From an uncultured Roseobacter sp. (GTDB lineage: Bacteria; Pseudomonadota; Alphaproteobacteria; Rhodobacterales; Rhodobacteraceae): a stretch of DNA of 64,000 nucleotides. The DNA lies in NCBI GenBank assembly GCA_947488305.1, contig CANKZM010000003.1:124001-188000 (forward strand), read 5' to 3'. Positions 2,998 to 11,923 of the stretch are shown here, one piece after another. The notes beneath the pieces were generated by a model, which was given only the letters and a program-made list of their open reading frames with translations, was not told where the DNA came from and did not search any database. Numbering within the stretch: the stretch's first letter is position 1; each line of letters opens with the position of its first letter. The translations under genes and the position numbers were made by a program.

Positions 2998-4047
2998 TTA
3001 TTGAGCCCGTGAAAACCCTTCGAAGAACATGTCGAATTGCCGGGATGATTTTTCGGCATCCCGCAAGATATGGTGATGCTCCTCAGCAATTGTGCGGTGC
3101 AACAAAGGTCGCATACGTCCCCAGTCGGAACTACGGGCCGATCTGAGCCGATACATGAGCTCCGAAATGGCGCGCAGGGGTCCGCTAGAGGCATGCGCGC
3201 GCTCAAAACGCAATCCACCAAATATCGGGGTGCCAAGAAAACCTGTCATTCCCGCCGTTCCCGCCCACCAGCTGGTGACCAGATATTCGTGATAGGCATC
3301 ATGGGCCGGTCCATCAGGTGCCGACGACAGAATGAAGCCACCTGCTTCCTGAGCCAACCAATCCTCCCATATCTCGCTGGGGGTTTGACCGGCAAAGCGC
3401 AAGGCTACACATACCTCTGACAAAAGATCGACGTCACGGTCCAAGAAAGCCAATAACCCTGCGAATTCCAGACTAGTCAGCGCATCTGCGACCAAATCCA
3501 GCGAATAGGCCCCGTAGTCAGACAGATAAAACACGATATGTGTAAGCTCGTAGGCTGCTTTTTTGTTCGGGCGTGAAAAGGTATCCGTCTGCGCGATGAA
3601 GTTCCTGAGGCGATCCTGCAGTTCTTCTGAGATTCCACCACATGACCTACGCGCCAACAGTCGTTGCGCTTCCGCCCGTTGCAAATCGGAGAGCTCACAT
3701 GCTGACAGATCAAGATCGTCAACCCGACGACAGAGTGCTTCCCCCATGTTCCCAGCCATGCCCAGATCTTCAAGATCCAGACAGATCGACAGAATGAACC
3801 TGTAGTACTGCGGAAAAAACTTCAGGCGCTCGTCAAGTTCGTCGTAGAAACCTCTGTAAACTTCCAGTGCCTCTGGTTGAAGCTCGGCACCTGATGACGC
3901 CAGAATATTGAGCAATTCCGCGTTTTCCTTCAGCCAGAAGACATCGTCCTTTTGTCGGCGGTGTCCTGAAAAGCTCTTCATCAGGGCACTTTGCCGCTGG
4001 GAAAGGTTTGGGCGCTTTGGCAGCCCGATTGAAACGATATTTGACAT
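2998..4047 (-). CDS. Uncharacterised 349-aa helical protein, partner of the repeat peptide (possibly DUF6902)
   Basis: I do not recognise a functional family with certainty. It resembles sequences I recall under DUF6902 in Rhodobacterales. The protein is cytoplasmic by appearance: no signal peptide and no convincing transmembrane segment. It is mostly alpha-helical, with a short basic N-terminus (residues 1-32) and an acidic, Leu-rich middle. Aromatic and His-rich motifs stand out: YHEYLVTSWWAG (about residues 253-264) and EEHHHILRDAE near the C-terminus. No Walker, HD, radical SAM CxxxCxxC or kinase motif is seen. It lies 79 bp downstream of the repeat-peptide gene on the same strand, separated only by a 10-bp hairpin, so the two are probably co-transcribed. 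The start ATG at 4047 has only a weak GGA about 12 nt upstream. Candidate roles are modification, export or regulation of the peptide; none is shown by sequence. Confidence 0.75.
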   Translation of the reverse strand: MSNIVSIGLPKRPNLSQRQSALMKSFSGHRRQKDDVFWLKENAELLNILASSGAELQPEALEVYRGFYDELDERLKFFPQYYRFILSICLDLEDLGMAGNMGEALCRRVDDLDLSACELSDLQRAEAQRLLARRSCGGISEELQDRLRNFIAQTDTFSRPNKKAAYELTHIVFYLSDYGAYSLDLVADALTSLEFAGLLAFLDRDVDLLSEVCVALRFAGQTPSEIWEDWLAQEAGGFILSSAPDGPAHDAYHEYLVTSWWAGTAGMTGFLGTPIFGGLRFERAHASSGPLRAISELMYRLRSARSSDWGRMRPLLHRTIAEEHHHILRDAEKSSRQFDMFFEGFSRAQ

Positions 4048-4126: not shown

Positions 4127-4420
4127 TCAGGCTGATGGTGCCATGCTGGTTGTGAACAGTCCGGTCGCTTCACCGCTCATCGCGTCCTGACCGCCGACCA
4201 TGCTGGTCGTGTAGAGACCAGTTTCGGACCCGGTCAGCGCCGATGACTGTGGCGCCATCGATGTGGTGAAGAGCGCTGTGGCGTCACCAAGCAACATGTC
4301 GTTGCCGGGCGTGACCATCGATGTCGTAAATAGCCCCGTGGCATCACCTGCGTGGCAGCTACCGCTTTCGACCGGGTTGGCGTCATCAATTGTGATGGAT
4401 CTAAGTGCAGTCGTTTTCAT
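4127..4420 (-). CDS. 97-aa peptide with four repeats of a TGLFTTSM-type core
   Basis: Small protein of unknown function built from four near-identical 12-residue units. Their consensus is G-[DES]-[AE]-T-[GA]-L-[FY]-T-T-S-M-[VA], at residues 25-36, 45-56, 64-75 and 83-94. Spacers of 7-8 residues rich in Pro, Gly, Asn, Gln and Ser separate them. A 24-residue leader-like N-terminus (TIDDANPVESGSCHAG) holds the only cysteine. The start is the ATG at 4420, preceded by AAAGGGA with 8-nt spacing; the frame is open further upstream but without such a site. Synonymous codons differ between repeats (Ser TCG/AGC; Thr ACA/ACC/ACG; Leu CTA/CTC/CTG), so the repeats are old and conserved at protein level. 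There is no classical signal peptide or lipobox. It could be a multi-core peptide precursor, a repetitive binding protein or a toxin-like peptide. A perfect CtrA-type site lies 81 bp upstream. Confidence 0.85.
   Translation of the reverse strand: MKTTALRSITIDDANPVESGSCHAGDATGLFTTSMVTPGNDMLLGDATALFTTSMAPQSSALTGSETGLYTTSMVGGQDAMSGEATGLFTTSMAPSA
4139..4348 (-). repeat. Four degenerate in-frame 36-bp repeats
   Basis: Units at 4313-4348, 4253-4288, 4196-4231 and 4139-4174, with periods of 60, 57 and 57 bp. The translated cores are almost identical, while third codon positions and the Ser codon family differ. Recent DNA duplication alone therefore cannot explain the similarity. Confidence 0.88.
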
Positions 4421-4769
4421 TATGCATATCCCTTTCTGGTGGAGTGTTTCTGCACCGCAAAGCTTGCCCCCAGAGGATGAGTTTGAAAGGAATATTCGCG
4501 TTAAGGATATGTTAACCAAGGTTTATCCACAGGACGCCTGGAAAGCAGATTATTCTGTGGGTTCATGGTTTTGGCACCGGCACGTTAACCAATTTTTTTT
4601 TATCCACAGTGGATAACTCTGTGGATATTAACCATTAGGGTCGTTTTGGCCGGAAAAGGTTAACAAGAATCAGTTAACCATTTCTGGGGAGAGTGCGGTC
4701 GTATGGCACTTGCTCCGGTCGCAGTCTTGGGCAATAGCTCCTAAATCTGCGAATAAAGGAGCGGACGAC
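4421..4769. promoter_or_regulatory. 349-bp intergenic region dense in CtrA-like and DnaA-box-like motifs
   Basis: No gene is seen between the divergent peptide gene (start 4420) and xth (start 4770). A perfect TTAA-N7-TTAA CtrA-type site is at 4501-4515. Further TTAAC-type half sites are at 4585-4592, 4628-4635 (TTAACCAT), 4660-4664 and 4674-4681 (TTAACCAT). Consensus DnaA boxes TTATCCACA are at 4523-4531 and 4600-4608, with one-mismatch boxes in reverse orientation at 4608-4616 and 4620-4628. TTATCCAC-A-GTGGATAA at 4600-4616 is a palindrome. An AT tract (4591-4603) adjoins it. The peptide promoter should lie near the 4501-4515 site; xth has AAAGGAG just before its ATG. Confidence 0.7.
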
Positions 4770-5552
4770 ATGAAGATTGCGACCTTCAACATAAACGGTA
4801 TCAAGGCCCGGATAGAGGCCTTGCCCGCTTGGCTCGATGAGGCACAACCGGATGTAGCGCTCCTGCAGGAGATCAAATCTGTCGATGAGGCGTTTCCCAG
4901 AGAGATCTTTGAAGACCGCGGATACAATGTCGAAACCCATGGTCAAAAAGGCTTCAATGGTGTGGCAATTCTGTCGAAAAGTCCACTCGAGGACATAACG
5001 CGCGGATTGCCAGGTGACGACGCTGACGAGCAGGCCCGTTACATCGAAGCCACCGTTATGGGAGACAAGGAAGCCATACGCGTTTGCGGGCTTTACCTGC
5101 CCAACGGCAACCCTTCTCCAGGTCCAAAATACGACTACAAGCTTGCCTGGATGGAGCGTCTCCATGCGCGCGCCCAAGAATTGCTGCGTGAGGAGATCCC
5201 GTTCGTCATGGCGGGAGATTATAATATCATCCCGCAGGCGGAAGATGCCGCAAAGCCAGATAGCTGGCGCGACGATGCCTTGTTCAGGCTGGAAAGCCGT
5301 ACCGCGTTCCGGCGGCTTTTGAACCTAGGTTTGACCGAAGCCTTCCGCGCAAGAACAGCTGGCCCCGGCCATTATAGCTTCTGGGACTACCAAGCGGGCG
5401 CCTGGAACCGCAACAATGGAATTCGTATCGACCATCTGCTTCTCAGCCCGCAGGCCGCGGACCTGCTGGTGGACTGCCACATCGACAAAGACGTGCGCGG
5501 ACGGGAAAAACCGTCCGACCACGTGCCTGTTTGGATTGACCTGGCAGCCTAG
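4770..5552 (+). CDS. xth: Exonuclease III / AP endonuclease family
   Basis: Mg2+-dependent exodeoxyribonuclease and AP endonuclease of base excision repair, 260 aa, the normal length. Family motifs appear in order: FNINGIKAR at the N-terminus, LLQEIK (metal-binding Glu), GLYLPNG, the catalytic pair in MAGDYNIIP (Asp and Asn), and the C-terminal SDHVPVW (general-base Asp-His). The start is the ATG of MKIATFN; AAAGGAG lies 8 nt upstream, and an earlier in-frame start adds unrelated residues. It is convergent with the DUF533 gene, with only 6 bp between the stops. Its promoter lies in the CtrA/DnaA-motif region, so regulation by those motifs could be shared with the repeat peptide. Confidence 0.94.
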   Translation: MKIATFNINGIKARIEALPAWLDEAQPDVALLQEIKSVDEAFPREIFEDRGYNVETHGQKGFNGVAILSKSPLEDITRGLPGDDADEQARYIEATVMGDKEAIRVCGLYLPNGNPSPGPKYDYKLAWMERLHARAQELLREEIPFVMAGDYNIIPQAEDAAKPDSWRDDALFRLESRTAFRRLLNLGLTEAFRARTAGPGHYSFWDYQAGAWNRNNGIRIDHLLLSPQAADLLVDCHIDKDVRGREKPSDHVPVWIDLAA

Positions 5553-5558
5553 ACCGAT

Positions 5559-6347
5559 TTAGCGGTATAGCCTCGGCGCACCGAGCCCGTCATGGATCCG
5601 ATTGACCACCTCCGGCTGTATGCCAAGCCCTTCAGCAAGGCTGTGAAGGTACTGCGCTTCTGCCTGATTATCCGGATTAATCGCATTCAATGACATCGTG
5701 TAGACTTGTGTCTCGAGGCCACGAGGGGTCTCTGCTGCGAGCGTATTTGCGCTCACTGGTTCTTCTAGAACCGCCTGAACCACTTTCACATCCTCAGGAT
5801 CACCATCATCCAACTGCCCAAGAAGCTTTTCCTTTTCCTCGGCATCCAGATCTCCGTCTGCGCGCGCCGCTTGCGTCATCGCGCGCAACATCAAGCGGGC
5901 AACATCCGCTTCATCTGGTTCAACCACCGGGTTGTCCTGATTGATCACAGCCTCCAGCTCGCCTGCACTTGCCCCGCCCCGAGCATTCGCCAGACCACCC
6001 AACAGGCTGCCCAATCCTCCAAGACCGCCAGCTGAAGCAGCGCCCGCGCTACCACCGGTCAACTGGCCAATGAGGTCACCTAGGCCGCCGGCACCGCCTG
6101 GTTGACCGCCTCCCAGTTGCCCCAGCAAGTCGCCAAGCCCTCCGGCGCCGCCCTGTTGACCGCCAGCGCCACCAAGCTGACCAATCAAATCTCCCAGACC
6201 GCCCATGCCGCCTGCCTGTTGGGTACCCGCATTGCCGCTTATCCCTTCAAGGACGGAGCCAATACCGCCCTTGCGCTGGACCGCTTCCATCCCCTTTGCA
6301 ACCGCAAATCCGATAGCCATCTTTGTGACTGTGTTCATTAAAGACAT
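5559..6347 (-). CDS. DUF533-family protein with Gly-rich GGLGDLIGQL repeats (TerB-like domain)
   Basis: The 262-aa protein has two halves. Residues 1-20 are hydrophobic (MNTVTKMAIGFAVAKGM). About residues 35-130 form a low-complexity region with repeated GG-L-G-D-L-(I/L)-G-Q-L units spaced by Gly, Gln, Ala and Pro. The C-terminal half (about 145-262) is a helical domain of DUF533/TerB (YebE-like) type, with AMTQAARADGDLDAEEKEKL as the recognisable acidic helix pair. The role of the family is unknown; members are often membrane-associated. The start ATG at 6347 follows GGGAGGA closely; an ATG three codons later is also possible. The Gly-rich stretch is longer than I expect for the family. Confidence 0.82.
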   Translation of the reverse strand: MSLMNTVTKMAIGFAVAKGMEAVQRKGGIGSVLEGISGNAGTQQAGGMGGLGDLIGQLGGAGGQQGGAGGLGDLLGQLGGGQPGGAGGLGDLIGQLTGGSAGAASAGGLGGLGSLLGGLANARGGASAGELEAVINQDNPVVEPDEADVARLMLRAMTQAARADGDLDAEEKEKLLGQLDDGDPEDVKVVQAVLEEPVSANTLAAETPRGLETQVYTMSLNAINPDNQAEAQYLHSLAEGLGIQPEVVNRIHDGLGAPRLYR

Positions 6348-6502
6348 GTAATCCTCCCACTGAAATACCTTATACATGCAACCCAATCATGATGGCCTTC
6401 GATTGGGCGCAGGTCCAGCGACAAGATGAATTATCTGAAATGTCCGAAATTTGCGCCTTGAATCGGTGGCAATTCGGCAAACCTTTGCTGGTCGCTGAGC
6501 TT

Positions 6503-7087
6503 CTAAGCCTCCAACTCCGCATCCCAATAGAGAAAATCCATCCAGCTTTCATGCAGATGGTTCGGTGGAAACTTACGCCCCATATTTCGCAACTCTTCCG
6601 CACCGGGTTGGCGAGGTGGCTTGCGTAGCGATAGCCCGGTCCGGTGCAACGGCTTGGCCCCTTTCCGAAGGTTGCACGGAGAGCAGGCGGCGACGACGTT
6701 TTGCCAGCTTGTTACCCCGCCCGAAGCACGGGGAACCACATGGTCAAAGGTCAAATCGCCCCGGGCGCCACAGTACTGGCACCTGAATTCATCCCGCAAA
6801 AACAAATTAAAGCGCGTGAATGCCACGCGCTTTTGAGGTTTGACGTAATCTTTCAGGACGACAACCGAGGGTATCCTGATCTCCGTACTCGGGCTTCGGA
6901 CGATGTCCTCGTACTCGGCCACGATATCGACCCGATCAAGCCAAGCGGCCTTGACTGCCTCCTGCCAGGGCCAAAGCGACAACGGATAGTAGCTCAACGG
7001 CCTGTAATCTGCGTTGAGAACCAACGCTGGCCGGTGCTTCAAACTGGCAGGATTACGCGTAAACTCAGTTCTGAAATCGCCGTCCAT
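6503..7087 (-). CDS. HNH endonuclease family protein
   Basis: 194-aa HNH nuclease-like protein. The zinc knuckle is complete: FRCQYCG (CxxC) and CSPCNLRKG (second CxxC), with TFDHVVPRASGG giving the D-H of the HNH core and WQNVVAAC the Asn. An N-terminal region of about 70 residues (VLNADYRPLSYYPLSLWPW) is typical of the chromosomal alphaproteobacterial version. These genes are usually single copy and not part of a restriction system; their substrate is unknown to me. No methylase or toxin gene is adjacent. The start ATG at 7087 has only a weak AGGGG about 12 nt upstream. Confidence 0.9.
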   Translation of the reverse strand: MDGDFRTEFTRNPASLKHRPALVLNADYRPLSYYPLSLWPWQEAVKAAWLDRVDIVAEYEDIVRSPSTEIRIPSVVVLKDYVKPQKRVAFTRFNLFLRDEFRCQYCGARGDLTFDHVVPRASGGVTSWQNVVAACSPCNLRKGAKPLHRTGLSLRKPPRQPGAEELRNMGRKFPPNHLHESWMDFLYWDAELEA

Positions 7088-7615
7088 AATTGTACTGTAC
7101 CCCTGCCGTTCCGCGTCCGGTCCAGCGAGTCCTTCCCGCTGATACCGTGACTATATATCGTGTTTTTCGCCTGACAAGCCCTTCGTTGACCACAATATGT
7201 CGCCCGATACCTAGTATGGGTGAATGACAGGCAGATGACAGTTATCCACAGGGAAATGACCTCAATTCGGATTACTCTGCGAGAGGCTTCGGTTTAAGGG
7301 GGCGTGTAAGGTCTCAGACGAGTACACCTAACCGACCTTATCTTGAGATAGCCGAAACAGATCGTCTCGACACGAGTGCCGACTTGGCCTTGCTCCGACC
7401 AGGAAAGCAGCACTTTGGTGGGATTGGGAATGGAATGTCGCAATTCGACGTCGGTGTGTTGGGCGCACTCCACCAGCAGGCGGACAGGAAAACCGATATC
7501 CAGAACGTGTTCAGTACAATTTATTGCGTCCAACCGCTTATTCTCTACCGGTGCAACTTGCGTCGCGCCAATAATCTGCCCACACTGCGAAAAATTTCCC
7601 GGAAGACGAGACCTC
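7088..7615. other. 528-bp intergenic region, no supported gene
   Basis: It lies between the divergent HNH gene and the RND adaptor gene. Open frames exist on both strands but none has a good start, ribosome site or recognisable protein. A consensus DnaA box TTATCCACA is at 7242-7250. A 12-bp palindrome TATCTTGAGATA is at 7339-7350 and could be an operator for the efflux genes. The length is unusual in this compact window; it could hold a decayed regulator gene or a small RNA, but I see neither clearly. Confidence 0.5.
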
Positions 7616-8785
7616 ATGACATCTGTTTCAACCAAGGCTCCAACATCTTTTGCTGGATTGGTGAAATCCATCTGGAACGTTGCTTTTTGTACGCTCCTGA
7701 TCACCTCTGCGAGCGCCAATGCTCAAGAGGCAGCGCCACCGCCAAAGGTTACAATCGCTGCGGCCTACACCGAAGAAATCGTTCGAGAAGCAACGTTCGT
7801 TGGCAGAGGGGAAGCCTCCGCAGCGACTGATCTAGTTGCGCGCGTCACTGGAATCATCACTGAAATCGTCGTGGGAGACGGCGCATCAGTGAAGGAAGGC
7901 GACGTTATTCTGCGCATTGAACCGGATACCTACGCTGCGGAAGTCGCCGCCCAGAAAGCGGCCGTCTTGCGCGCCGAGGCCAACGTCAAGCTCGCTGAGA
8001 TCGAGTTGGTGAGAAAGACAGCCCTTGTCCAGCGGGAGACTGTTGCCCAGTCAGAGCTGGATATTGCCCAGGCAAACGCTTCGGTTGCTGAGGCGGATCT
8101 TGCCGCCGCGAAGGCGGCCCTCACGGAAGCAGAACTCAACCTGCAGCGTACTGAAATAAAAGCTCCTTTTGATGGACGTATCGGGCGAAACAACGTGAGC
8201 CTGGGCGCTTTGGTCAGCCCGTCGACGGGCCCATTGGTCACAGTCGTCCAGGAAACACCGATGTATGTGACTTTTTCGCTGTCGGAACCACAGTTGCTAT
8301 CCATTCTTGAACGACTTGACCGCGGCATTGATGATCTGATCCAAGGCGACCAATCCCCCAATGTCTTCGTGAAGCTTCCCAATGGCACGCTTTTGGATGA
8401 GCCCGGGTCCGTCGTCTTTCTGGACAACCGCATTGACCCAGCGACGGGTACGATTTCTCTGCGAGCGGAGTTCGAAAACGCCCAACGCGTCATTCTGGAC
8501 GGGGGATTCGTATCCGTTGTGATAGAAGAATTGGAACCGACGTTGAGCGTTCTAATTCCTCAGAATGCCGTGCAACGGGATCAGCGGGGCGACTTCGTTC
8601 TCGTGGTAACCGACCAGCAACTGGTCGAGCAACGCTACGTCACGCTTGGACCTTTCGAAGGTACAGCCGTCATCGTGGCGGACGGTCTTCGGGAGGGTGA
8701 AAGCGTCATCACCGAAGGACTTCAGCGGGTCAGGCCGGGTGTTTCAGTCGATGCAGTGCTGGCTGGCACCGGCGAAGGGAACTGA
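7616..8785 (+). CDS. RND efflux periplasmic adaptor (membrane fusion protein)
   Basis: Periplasmic adaptor that links an inner-membrane RND pump to an outer-membrane channel. 389 aa with a hydrophobic signal sequence ending near SASANAQ (about residue 36). A lipoyl/barrel-sandwich half (ATDLVARVTGIITEIVVGDGASVKEGDVIL) is followed by a long alpha-hairpin (about 110-175, Ala/Glu-rich coiled coil), the second lipoyl half (IKAPFDGRIGRNNVSLGALVSP) and the beta-barrel and membrane-proximal domains. The start is the ATG at 7616 (MTSVSTKAP); the longer frame upstream lacks family similarity. The pump gene follows after 3 bp, so the two are translationally linked. No regulator or outer-membrane factor gene is adjacent. 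Confidence 0.93.
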   Translation: MTSVSTKAPTSFAGLVKSIWNVAFCTLLITSASANAQEAAPPPKVTIAAAYTEEIVREATFVGRGEASAATDLVARVTGIITEIVVGDGASVKEGDVILRIEPDTYAAEVAAQKAAVLRAEANVKLAEIELVRKTALVQRETVAQSELDIAQANASVAEADLAAAKAALTEAELNLQRTEIKAPFDGRIGRNNVSLGALVSPSTGPLVTVVQETPMYVTFSLSEPQLLSILERLDRGIDDLIQGDQSPNVFVKLPNGTLLDEPGSVVFLDNRIDPATGTISLRAEFENAQRVILDGGFVSVVIEELEPTLSVLIPQNAVQRDQRGDFVLVVTDQQLVEQRYVTLGPFEGTAVIVADGLREGESVITEGLQRVRPGVSVDAVLAGTGEGN

Positions 8786-8788
8786 TCC

Positions 8789-11700
8789 TTGCTTTCAACT
8801 GTATTCATCAATCGGCCAAAGATGGCCATCGTCATTTCGACAGTGCTGACACTAATGGGGTTGATTGCCTATTCGGTGATCCCGGTCGAGCAGTTCCCGA
8901 ACATTACCCCCCCGGTGGTCAATGTATCGGCGACCTACACCGGTGCGAATGCGGAAACCGTTGAGGCAACGGTTGCTGCCCCCATCGAGGCCGAGGTCAA
9001 TGGTGTCGAAGACATGATCTACATGTCGTCCGACAGCTCAGACATCGGCTCTTATAACCTGTCTGTGACCTTCGACGTCGGTACAGATCCGACAATCGCC
9101 ACTGTTAACGTGCAAAACCGGGTGGCACAGGCCACCAGCGGATTGCCGGTGGAGGTGACATCGACCGGCGTTGTGACGGAAAAATCCTCCACCAGTATGC
9201 TTCTCGTGGCGACCCTTTTTTCACCCGAAGGCACCTATGACGAAGTCTTTCTGTCGAATTACGCGTCCATCAATTTAAAAGATGCGCTGGCGAGGGTACC
9301 CGGTGTCGGCAAGGCCGATGTTCTGACTGATTTTGCTTACGCGATGCGGATCTGGATGGACCCCGACCGCATGACCGGGTTGGGTGTCACGCCCTCCGAC
9401 GTCATTGCAGCCATCCAGGAGCAGAACATTGTCGTGTCTGCCGGCCAGATTGGTGCGCCCCCTGCCCCGGATGGACAACAGTTTCAATACTCCGTCACCG
9501 CCCAGGGGCGTCTATCCACCGCTGAGGAATTCGAAAACATCATCGTGCGCACTGGGGAGTCGGGCAGTGTTTTACGTTTGGGGGACATCGCGCGCATTGA
9601 ACTGGGCGCAAGTTCCTATGGCGTGTCGGGCCGCTACCAAGGGCAACCTGCAACCGTACTCGCAGTCTATCAGGCACCGGGTGAAAATGCCTTGGCCGTT
9701 GCAGCAGGTGTGTATTCCGAACTGGAACGCCTGTCTCGCGCCTTCCCGCAGGACGTAGCCTATGAGGTACCCTTCGACAGTACCGATTTCGTGGAACAAT
9801 CGCTCAACGATGTGGTGTCCACACTGATCCTGACCTTCATTCTCGTGATGTCGGTTGTCTTTGTGTTTCTTGGCAGTTTCCGGGCAACGGTCATCCCGGC
9901 TGTGGCTATTCCCGTCTCGCTGATCGGTACGTTCGCATTTTTGCTGCTGATGGGGATGACGCTGAACACCATCTCGCTTTTTGCTTTGGTGCTCGCCATC
10001 GGCATCGTGGTTGATGATGCGATCGTCGTCGTTGAAAACGTGGAACGGATCATTGCGGACGAAGGCCTGAGCCCCCCGGAAGCAACTGCTAAGGCCATGA
10101 CGCAGATCACCACACCGGTTGTCGCGACAACACTGGTTTTGCTGGCTGTTTTTATCCCCGTGACGTTCATGCCCGGGATCTCAGGACAATTATTCTCCCA
10201 GTTTGCCGTCACTATTTCGGTGGCGGTTGTTATTTCGTCCATCAATGCTTTGACATTGTCGCCTGCGCTTTGCGCCATCGTTCTCAAAGCGCGTTCCGGC
10301 CCTCCAAAAGGAGTATTGGCTGCTTTTGAAAAAACTATTGGCGGGCTGCGCAATGGGTATGCCGGGATCGTCGGCAAGTTGATCCGCCTCCCCATTATAG
10401 GGCTTGTCATTCTTGTAGCCCTAGGGGCCGCCTCCGGGTCGATGATGAATATGCTGCCGAAGGGCTTCCTGCCCCTGGAAGACAACGGATATGTGTTTGT
10501 CGATGTCCAGCTTCCTGATGCGGCAACGGTGCAACGGACGGAAATCGTCGCTGACAGGTTCGTCGAGAATATCGGACAGATACCTGGCGTGGTTAACACC
10601 GTTCAGGTAAACGGGTTCAGCCTCTTGAACGGTGTGGGGTCGAATGGTGCGATGATCATCGTCAACCTCGAAAACTGGGAGGAACGACCCGAAGAGGAGA
10701 AAAGTGCCGACGGCATACTGGCCACCATCTATGGCCTTGCTGCGCAGGAAGCTTCTGCCAAGATCATCGCTTTCAATCCCCCTCCAATCTCGGGCCTTGG
10801 CGTCAGCGCAGGTGTGGAGATGAAAGTCCAGCAAACTGGCGGTGGTACTGCGGGTGATCTGGCTGCGGCGGTGAATTCGCTGGTTTTTGCTGCCAACCAA
10901 CGACCAGAAATCGCGCAAGCCTACACCAGCTTCAGTGCCAATGTGCCGAAGCTATTTGTCGATTTGGATCGCGAGAAATCCCGAACGCTGGGTATTCCGG
11001 TGAGCGATGTGTTCCAAACCCTGCAGGCGCATCTTGGGTCGATCTATGTCAATGATTTGAACCTTTTTGGCAAAGTGTACCGCGTGATGATTCAGGCCGA
11101 TGCTGATTATCGCGACACAGTGGAAGACATTGGCCGACTACATGTCCGCACCGGCGACGGCCAGATGGCACCTCTTTCTACACTCATTGACGTTGAAAAG
11201 GTTCTGGGTCCTGTTTTGCTGAACCGCTACAACTTGTTCCGCGCTGCCACCGTGACTGCGGTACCTGCCGAAGGTTTCTCTACCGGCGATGCAATCCGAA
11301 TTCTTCAGGAGGAATCTGTAACTGCATTGCCTCCCGGATATAGCTACGAATGGACCGGCACCGCGCAACAGCAACAAGATGCGGGCGGTACCGTTGTTTA
11401 CGTTCTGCTCGCCGCCATAGTCTTCGGGTATCTATTCCTGGTCGCCCAGTACGAAAGCTGGACAATGCCGCTGGGCATCCTGTTGTCAGTCACCGTGGCC
11501 CTATTCGGCGCCTTGGCGGCGGTCTTGGTCACAGCGGGCGATGTCAATCTTTATACTCAGATCGGGATGATAATGCTGATCGGATTGGCATCAAAGAATG
11601 CCATTCTGATTGTCGAGTTTGCGATGGAGCAACGTGCCAAGGGTGCAACGATCCGGGAAGCGGCACTGGAAGCCGCCCGTCAGAGATTCAGAGCCGTTAT

Positions 11701-11923
11701 GATGACCGCGCTTTCCTTTCTGCTCGGCGTAGTACCCCTATTGATTGCTGCGGGTGCGGGAGCGGCCAGTCAAAAGGCGATCGGTATCGCCGTGTTCGGC
11801 GGAATGCTTGCAGCTACCGTCATCGGGGTTATTGTCGTGCCCGTGCTCTATGTGCTGCTTCAATCCTTGCGCGAGCGGGTCAAAACAGGATTTGGCAGAA
11901 AGGGGCCAACTACCGCAGAATGA
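8789..11923 (+). CDS. RND efflux pump, HAE1 (AcrB-like) family
   Basis: Inner-membrane proton/drug antiporter of 1044 aa, the usual size for the family. The N-terminus [20 protein letters not shown] is the standard first transmembrane helix, which supports a TTG start at 8789 with AAGGGA about 10 nt upstream; no ATG or GTG fits. The TM4 proton-relay aspartates are present in [17 protein letters not shown]. Two large periplasmic loops and twelve predicted helices follow the usual order, ending with [16 protein letters not shown] and the basic C-terminal tail. It forms an operon with the adaptor. The substrate cannot be inferred. The outer-membrane partner must be encoded elsewhere. Confidence 0.94.

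Follow-up and report, generated by a model that had tools for sequence, protein, structure and literature searches.

Related peptide systems

The nearest described relative of the system treated here is a lasso-peptide epimerase of the DUF6895 family (Shi et al., ACS Catal 2026, as its title is cited in PMC13352647). A related family, DUF6902, is represented in a 64,000-nt stretch of an uncultured Roseobacter sp. genome (assembly GCA_947488305.1, contig CANKZM010000003.1, positions 124,001 to 188,000; hereafter the window), where its gene lies beside that of a 97-aa peptide with four repeated units, P0001, and this pair of genes is the subject of the present analysis. The two families share a set of Y/H/D/E/D/YH residues, and the DUF6895 enzyme is reported to act on a ribosomal peptide. 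However, DUF6902 accompanies multi-core arrays and is distant in sequence. Lasso peptides are marked by a B2-type leader peptidase (PF13471) and an Asn-synthetase-like cyclase; the search was for the former, which has 0 matches in the window's genome. A proposed analogy is offered by MslH, the epimerase of the lasso peptide MS-271, in which His/Asp acid/base groups act in the epimerization of a peptide Cα (PMC10406935, available part). The same text gives MslH a calcineurin-like fold, in which Ca(II) and two His/Asp pairs are present, which makes it a different enzyme from DUF6895/DUF6902, since DUF6902 is predicted to be all-α.

Microviridin precursors carry several cores served by one enzyme (PMC5934393, available part). 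The present precursors differ from them in having up to 20 units and a core that is uniform within and variable between precursors. The microviridin maturase is also different from DUF6902. Class V lanthipeptides are brought to mind by a distant DUF6895 relative fused to a PF01636 domain, but few cores of the family contain Cys, and LanX has a kinase fold in the accessible parts of PMC9486802 and PMC12291118, so that DUF6895 was rejected as a class V LanX. Of the two marks of that class, a HopA1-type lyase (PF17914) and a PF01636 kinase, the search was for the lyase, which gave 0 matches in the window's genome. The (α/α)6 sugar 2-epimerases, such as cellobiose 2-epimerase, act on sugars, and none of them appeared in PDB sequence searches, which returned nothing for DUF6902 and one chance-level match for a DUF6895 protein. 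In the literature searched, DUF6895 is named, whereas DUF6902, PF21836 and PF21843 are named nowhere; neither the core strings tried nor DUF6749 was found, and no paper on such a system in Rhodobacterales was among the matches listed.

The repeat peptide and its DUF6902 partner

The pairing of a repeat peptide with a DUF6902 gene is far above chance. A same-strand repeat peptide is found just upstream of DUF6902 in 126 of 132 loci, 122 of them recognized by script, one (L105, where the script found no three-fold repeat) from the listing, and three two-copy peptides (L137, L139 and L142) by eye. Five loci are unreadable, with masked bases (L022 and L104, on contigs of equal length) or a contig end (L048, L074 and L151), and L136 is the only readable locus that has no such peptide. 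The set draws on the best 80 of 289 relatives, 20 further stretches and L157; it covers 51 of the 55 DUF6902-positive genomes (G096, G119, G139 and G148 are left out) and counts some genomes twice, as they occur in two collections.

At the level of genomes, DUF6902 is present in 55 of 198 from the window's family, and 47 of the 48 genomes with precursor matches are within these 55. The exception, G017, has a marginal match (E 1.9e-4) inside a 1507-aa frame. At most 16 precursor candidates and 12 candidates for the EamA permease described below were scored per genome, and weak members may be missed. In a class-level sample of 190 genomes, DUF6902 matches were confined to three genomes of the same family and a below-cut-off match in G395, which was used. 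A phage or plasmid origin was rejected because tblastn with DUF6902 gave no match in either collection, and a defence or phage family because there was no PADLOC match at E 1 and PHROGs gave only E 0.051 and 0.17.

The initial annotation, made from the sequence of the window alone, had proposed a translated peptide of four 12-residue units with TGLFTTSM-type cores, adjacent to an unknown protein. That the frame is real is confirmed by its stop-free translation and by the comparable peptides upstream of the same neighbour. The four copies stand, but the unit is 11 residues long, four core residues coming after the consensus G-[DE]-x-[VT]-x-x-F; TTSM holds in the window and is the lineage-specific part, the shared part being G-x-x-T-x-L-F. 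P0001 (Table 1) has 24 residues, then four units ending in F/Y-T-T-S-M at spacings of 20, 19 and 19 with 8–9-residue spacers, and then four residues. The synonymous differences between its repeats, including both Ser codon families (TCG and AGC), are visible in the codon print-out as had been claimed. No Pfam or NCBIfam model matches P0001, and no library searched gave a significant match to the precursor.

Homologues of variable repeat number beside the same neighbour, on which the proposal had been made to depend beforehand, are plentiful: 114 distinct precursors next to DUF6902 (a set omitting the two-copy L137, L139 and L142 and the mixed L105) contain 779 units, 1–20 each with a median of 7. 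The distance from one unit to the next is mostly 20 residues (289 cases) or 21 (298), and the N-terminus most often begins MTA, MSA or MNA. The last core residue is exactly the C-terminus in 88 of 113 precursors, that of the window not being among them because of its four extra residues. Contigs seem to break within the precursor array in G027 (C6/C20) and G053 (C8/C31), so that repeat numbers from draft genomes may be too low. Upstream of position 6001, L105 has a precursor with two core types, VSGS and MQSV, in two copies each.

Uniform cores that change between lineages

The short core is rewritten between lineages in nearly all copies together. With the Phe of the constant part as position 0, between-precursor differentiation at core positions +1 to +4 is 0.99, 0.89, 0.92 and 0.94, and it does not exceed 0.47 at any other position from −16 to +10. 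The Gly at −6 is practically invariant and a Pro at +6 is common (0.83; 114 precursors). Since these units were found with a matrix covering both the core and the G..F part, the constancy of the latter is partly built in. The units were therefore found again from positions −6 to 0 only, which frees the core result from the matrix. In this core-blind repeat, 756 of 775 units carry the majority tetrapeptide of their own precursor, and only one tetrapeptide occurs in 100 of 113 precursors. The other 13 comprise nine with a mixture of two core types (L045, L047, L050, L051, L052, L076, L145, L147 and L149), three in which a single unit is odd (L028, L062 and L083) and L082, which looks like a false unit. 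The differentiation values and the core-blind repeat place the core and the putative recognition part under different selection, as expected of a ribosomally synthesized and post-translationally modified peptide (RiPP).

There are 33 majority tetrapeptides, led by SSGS (20), TSGS (14), TSSL (12), TTSM (10), TSWS (8) and TSGL (6). A quick tree, built from the DUF6902 proteins of 112 of the 114 loci (two short proteins were omitted) and with 34 of 109 inner branches unsure, requires at least 45 changes of the tetrapeptide. The sister loci L006 and L044 have TSGS or SSGS in every copy, a difference of T against S, while their spacer sequence is largely common. Within precursors, 5190 of 10,159 pairs of codons for the same core residue differ (51%; Met and Trp left out), implying that the uniformity of the cores is not due to recent copying of DNA alone. 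Selection on a short peptide has left an unusually clean trace in these cores, fixed within lineages and rewritten between them, and what drives concerted change in repeated cores is now directly testable.

No co-variation of DUF6902 with the core was found (highest z 3.3 over 266 columns, first label only). The lack of a core-following signature in DUF6902 fits an enzyme that would read the constant G..F part and tolerate any core, and fits selection of the core being left to a putative receptor or target.

The DUF6902 protein and its relation to DUF6895

The neighbour, which begins 79 nt downstream of the precursor gene, is adjacent as had been stated but is not without relatives: it is a DUF6902 protein, related to DUF6895 and probably a modifying enzyme. 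It also matches DUF6895 (PF21836) with E 7.4e-20 and 71.9 bits against a cut-off of 23.8, and hhalign relates the two families at 91.7% over 100 columns. Residues Y166, H170, G179, D207, E211, D250, Y252 and H253 are common to DUF6902 and DUF6895-type proteins, and the sequence relation and the shared residues together place both in one superfamily. The divergent DUF6902-like protein of L136 (3331-4428, +), which has no peptide, has lost Y166, H170, D207, E211, Y252 and H253 and kept G179 and D250.

DUF6902 is probably an all-α protein of the α/α toroid type. This reading comes from VIA-align and the helix pattern, without coordinates in hand; many invariant residues sit on alternate helices, predicted to be the inner ones. 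No Foldseek match reached E 0.001.

Outside the family, all five readable loci have a small open reading frame (ORF) 4 to 128 nt upstream of the DUF6895-type gene, a count that has no chance control. Three DUF6895 matches were left out: G734 for its broken frame and undetermined bases, and G285 and G274 as below cut-off. As judged from motifs repeated within or shared between the peptides, the link appears strong at L159, with two paralogous peptides (LVGRWYVY and LVGPWFVL), at L160, with the cores ELAGPWYIYKE and ELVGPWFVLKEG, and at L198, with the cores EVAGYVFVWDKYVYDV and EVAGYIYTEDKYTFIV; it appears weaker at L161 and L197. The presence of a small ORF at all five suggests that the superfamily accompanies small, sometimes repeated, peptides beyond the Rhodobacteraceae. 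At L159 (4619-10241), the two peptides and DUF6895 form a compact group with an MFS permease, an O-methyltransferase and a C39-like peptidase, a candidate natural-product cluster. At L197 (2539-5250, +), a 903-aa protein with DUF6895 fused to an APH-type phosphotransferase (PF01636) starts 4 nt past a 128-aa ORF.

Proposed pathway and alternative explanations

The way in which the cores change suggests a family of modified peptides that has not been described before, and it is what would be expected of either layout initially proposed, the multi-core precursor and the repeat ligand. As expected of a RiPP system, a small precursor gene stands beside, and co-occurs with, the gene of what would be its dedicated maturase (126/132 loci; 47/48 genomes). 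DUF6902 is likely to modify the cores, and on balance we lean towards a multi-core RiPP-type precursor whose cores undergo L-to-D epimerization by this protein. We infer the following steps. The constant part G-[DE]-x-[VT]-x-x-F would serve for recognition, with DUF6902 binding the units, and each 4-residue core would be modified, most likely by L-to-D epimerization at the α-carbon, with H170 and H253 together with D207, E211 and D250 as acid/base groups inside an α/α barrel. The array would be cut after each core, as is suggested by most family precursors ending exactly there. Export of the pieces would come next, by way of a dedicated EamA permease in most relatives. Transcription would be linked to DnaA, and to CtrA as well in the lineage of the window, in which case the output would follow the cell cycle. 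The modification was initially expected to be new or absent; if it is epimerization, the chemistry is not wholly new, because a peptide epimerase has been published from DUF6895, to which DUF6902 is related.

The same evolutionary pattern is predicted if the array is neither cut nor modified and is instead a multivalent ligand, the units being motifs that bind the DUF6902 toroid and the repeats setting the number of partners. The cores would then be uniform because all must fit one site. α/α toroids can bind peptides, and no peptidase was found among the 22 most widespread neighbour clusters, the genome search being limited to the one peptidase family PF13471. However, the invariant His, Asp and Glu on the predicted inner helices are common to a family with a reported epimerase, and a pocket that reads the core should follow it, of which no signal was found. 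The precise ending of 88 of 113 precursors at the core and the dedicated permease alongside DUF6902 in 40 of 55 genomes also speak against the ligand reading, which we consider unlikely. The cores are rich in Ser and Thr, and DUF6902 could instead dehydrate, cyclize, glycosylate or cleave them. Such other chemistry has to contend with the divergent core IAGL of L137, which has no Ser, Thr or Cys, with the lack of Cys for thioether rings in most majority cores and with the absence of a HopA1-type lyase from the window's genome, and it too seems improbable. Tandem duplication and gene conversion could keep the copies of a functionless low-complexity array alike, and some precursors do have recent near-identical copies, such as units 3–6 of L006. 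Yet spacers diverge while cores stay uniform, and the precursor accompanies DUF6902 across the family; the codon differences already contradict such a neutral origin, which is very hard to credit.

If DUF6902 does epimerize many sites per chain, it would also be of practical use in the production of D-amino-acid peptides. Irrespective of the chemistry, a domain of unknown function and an unmatched peptide now become a testable peptide pathway in 55 of the 198 sampled genomes of the family. A bolder and rather doubtful extension of the epimerization pathway is that of a species-specific peptide code controlled by the cell cycle, in which one precursor gives rise to many copies of a short peptide containing D-amino acids, produced by an iterative toroid epimerase and released under the control of DnaA, with the core as the species tag. 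If so, the core would have been rewritten repeatedly, in nearly all copies, as a pheromone or self-recognition signal would be, and DUF6895/DUF6902 would constitute a RiPP class across several proteobacterial lineages.

Promoter region and features of the locus

The full CtrA-type site TTAA-N7-TTAA that had been predicted ahead of P0001 is present, together with two perfect DnaA-box sequences (Table 1); both names are those of consensus motifs. The boxes, which the initial annotation lacked, are more widely conserved. Of 94 loci, 64 have a perfect DnaA-box sequence no more than 350 nt from the precursor start (0.3 expected), against 14 with the full CtrA-type site (0.4 expected). Seven Roseobacter loci (L032–L038) share with the window a full CtrA-type site at −91 to −95. 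The most shared upstream 9-mer, TGTGGATAA, occurs at 62 of 98 non-redundant loci, mainly in one orientation and with a commonest spacing of 76 bp. Such motifs are sparse in 300 kb of the window's contig, with just three perfect DnaA boxes and four CtrA-type sites, of which two boxes and one site are at this locus; the third box (7242-7250) lies upstream of an HNH-endonuclease gene, 6503-7087(−).

The divergent upstream gene (4770-5552) encodes an exonuclease-III-like protein with an Exo_endo_phos domain, here called xthA. That the boxes belong to xthA was rejected, since they are upstream of it in 0 of 9 genomes without DUF6902 and in 14 of 21 with it, these 30 loci being the best-scoring ones and not a random draw. 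A chromosome origin (oriC), suggested by the boxes, was also rejected: GC skew is negative in the 10-kb bins flanking the locus and shows no lasting sign change there over 300 kb.

Table 1. Coordinates of the features at the P0001 locus (positions in the window)
Feature	Position	Strand	Basis or remark
DUF6902 protein, 349 aa, probable α/α toroid	2998..4047	−	PF21843, E 4.4e-137
Precursor gene P0001, 97 aa, four cores	4127..4420	−	4-residue tail past last core
Unit 4, GEATGLFTTSM	4142..4174	−	codon print-out
Unit 3, GSETGLYTTSM	4199..4231	−	codon print-out
Unit 2, GDATALFTTSM	4256..4288	−	codon print-out
Unit 1, GDATGLFTTSM	4316..4348	−	codon print-out
Leader-like N-terminus, residues 1–24 of P0001	4349..4420	−	sequence
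Ribosome-binding-like GAAAGGGA, ahead of precursor start	4429..4436	−	sequence
CtrA-type full site TTAA-N7-TTAA	4501..4515	.	motif match
Perfect DnaA-box sequence TTATCCACA	4523..4531	.	motif match
Perfect DnaA-box sequence TTATCCACA	4600..4608	.	77 bp from first box

Partner genes and surroundings

An EamA-family permease gene follows DUF6902 directly in 91 of 129 loci, and in 88 of these 91 its start falls from about −3 to +39 nt relative to the stop of DUF6902. Of 198 genomes, 40 have the dedicated subfamily (E ≤1e-40), and every one of the 40 belongs to the 55 that have DUF6902; the window's genome has no match. The wider surroundings consist of conserved genes, which in the window include Fe-S_biosyn and HD domains. 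About 3 kb from the precursor, on the opposite strand, is an RND efflux pair (HlyD-type and AcrB-type; 7376-11923, +), with no peptide link seen. A DUF533 protein (5559-6386, −) has an N-terminal half made of a Gly-rich repeat of the GGLGDLIGQLGG type.
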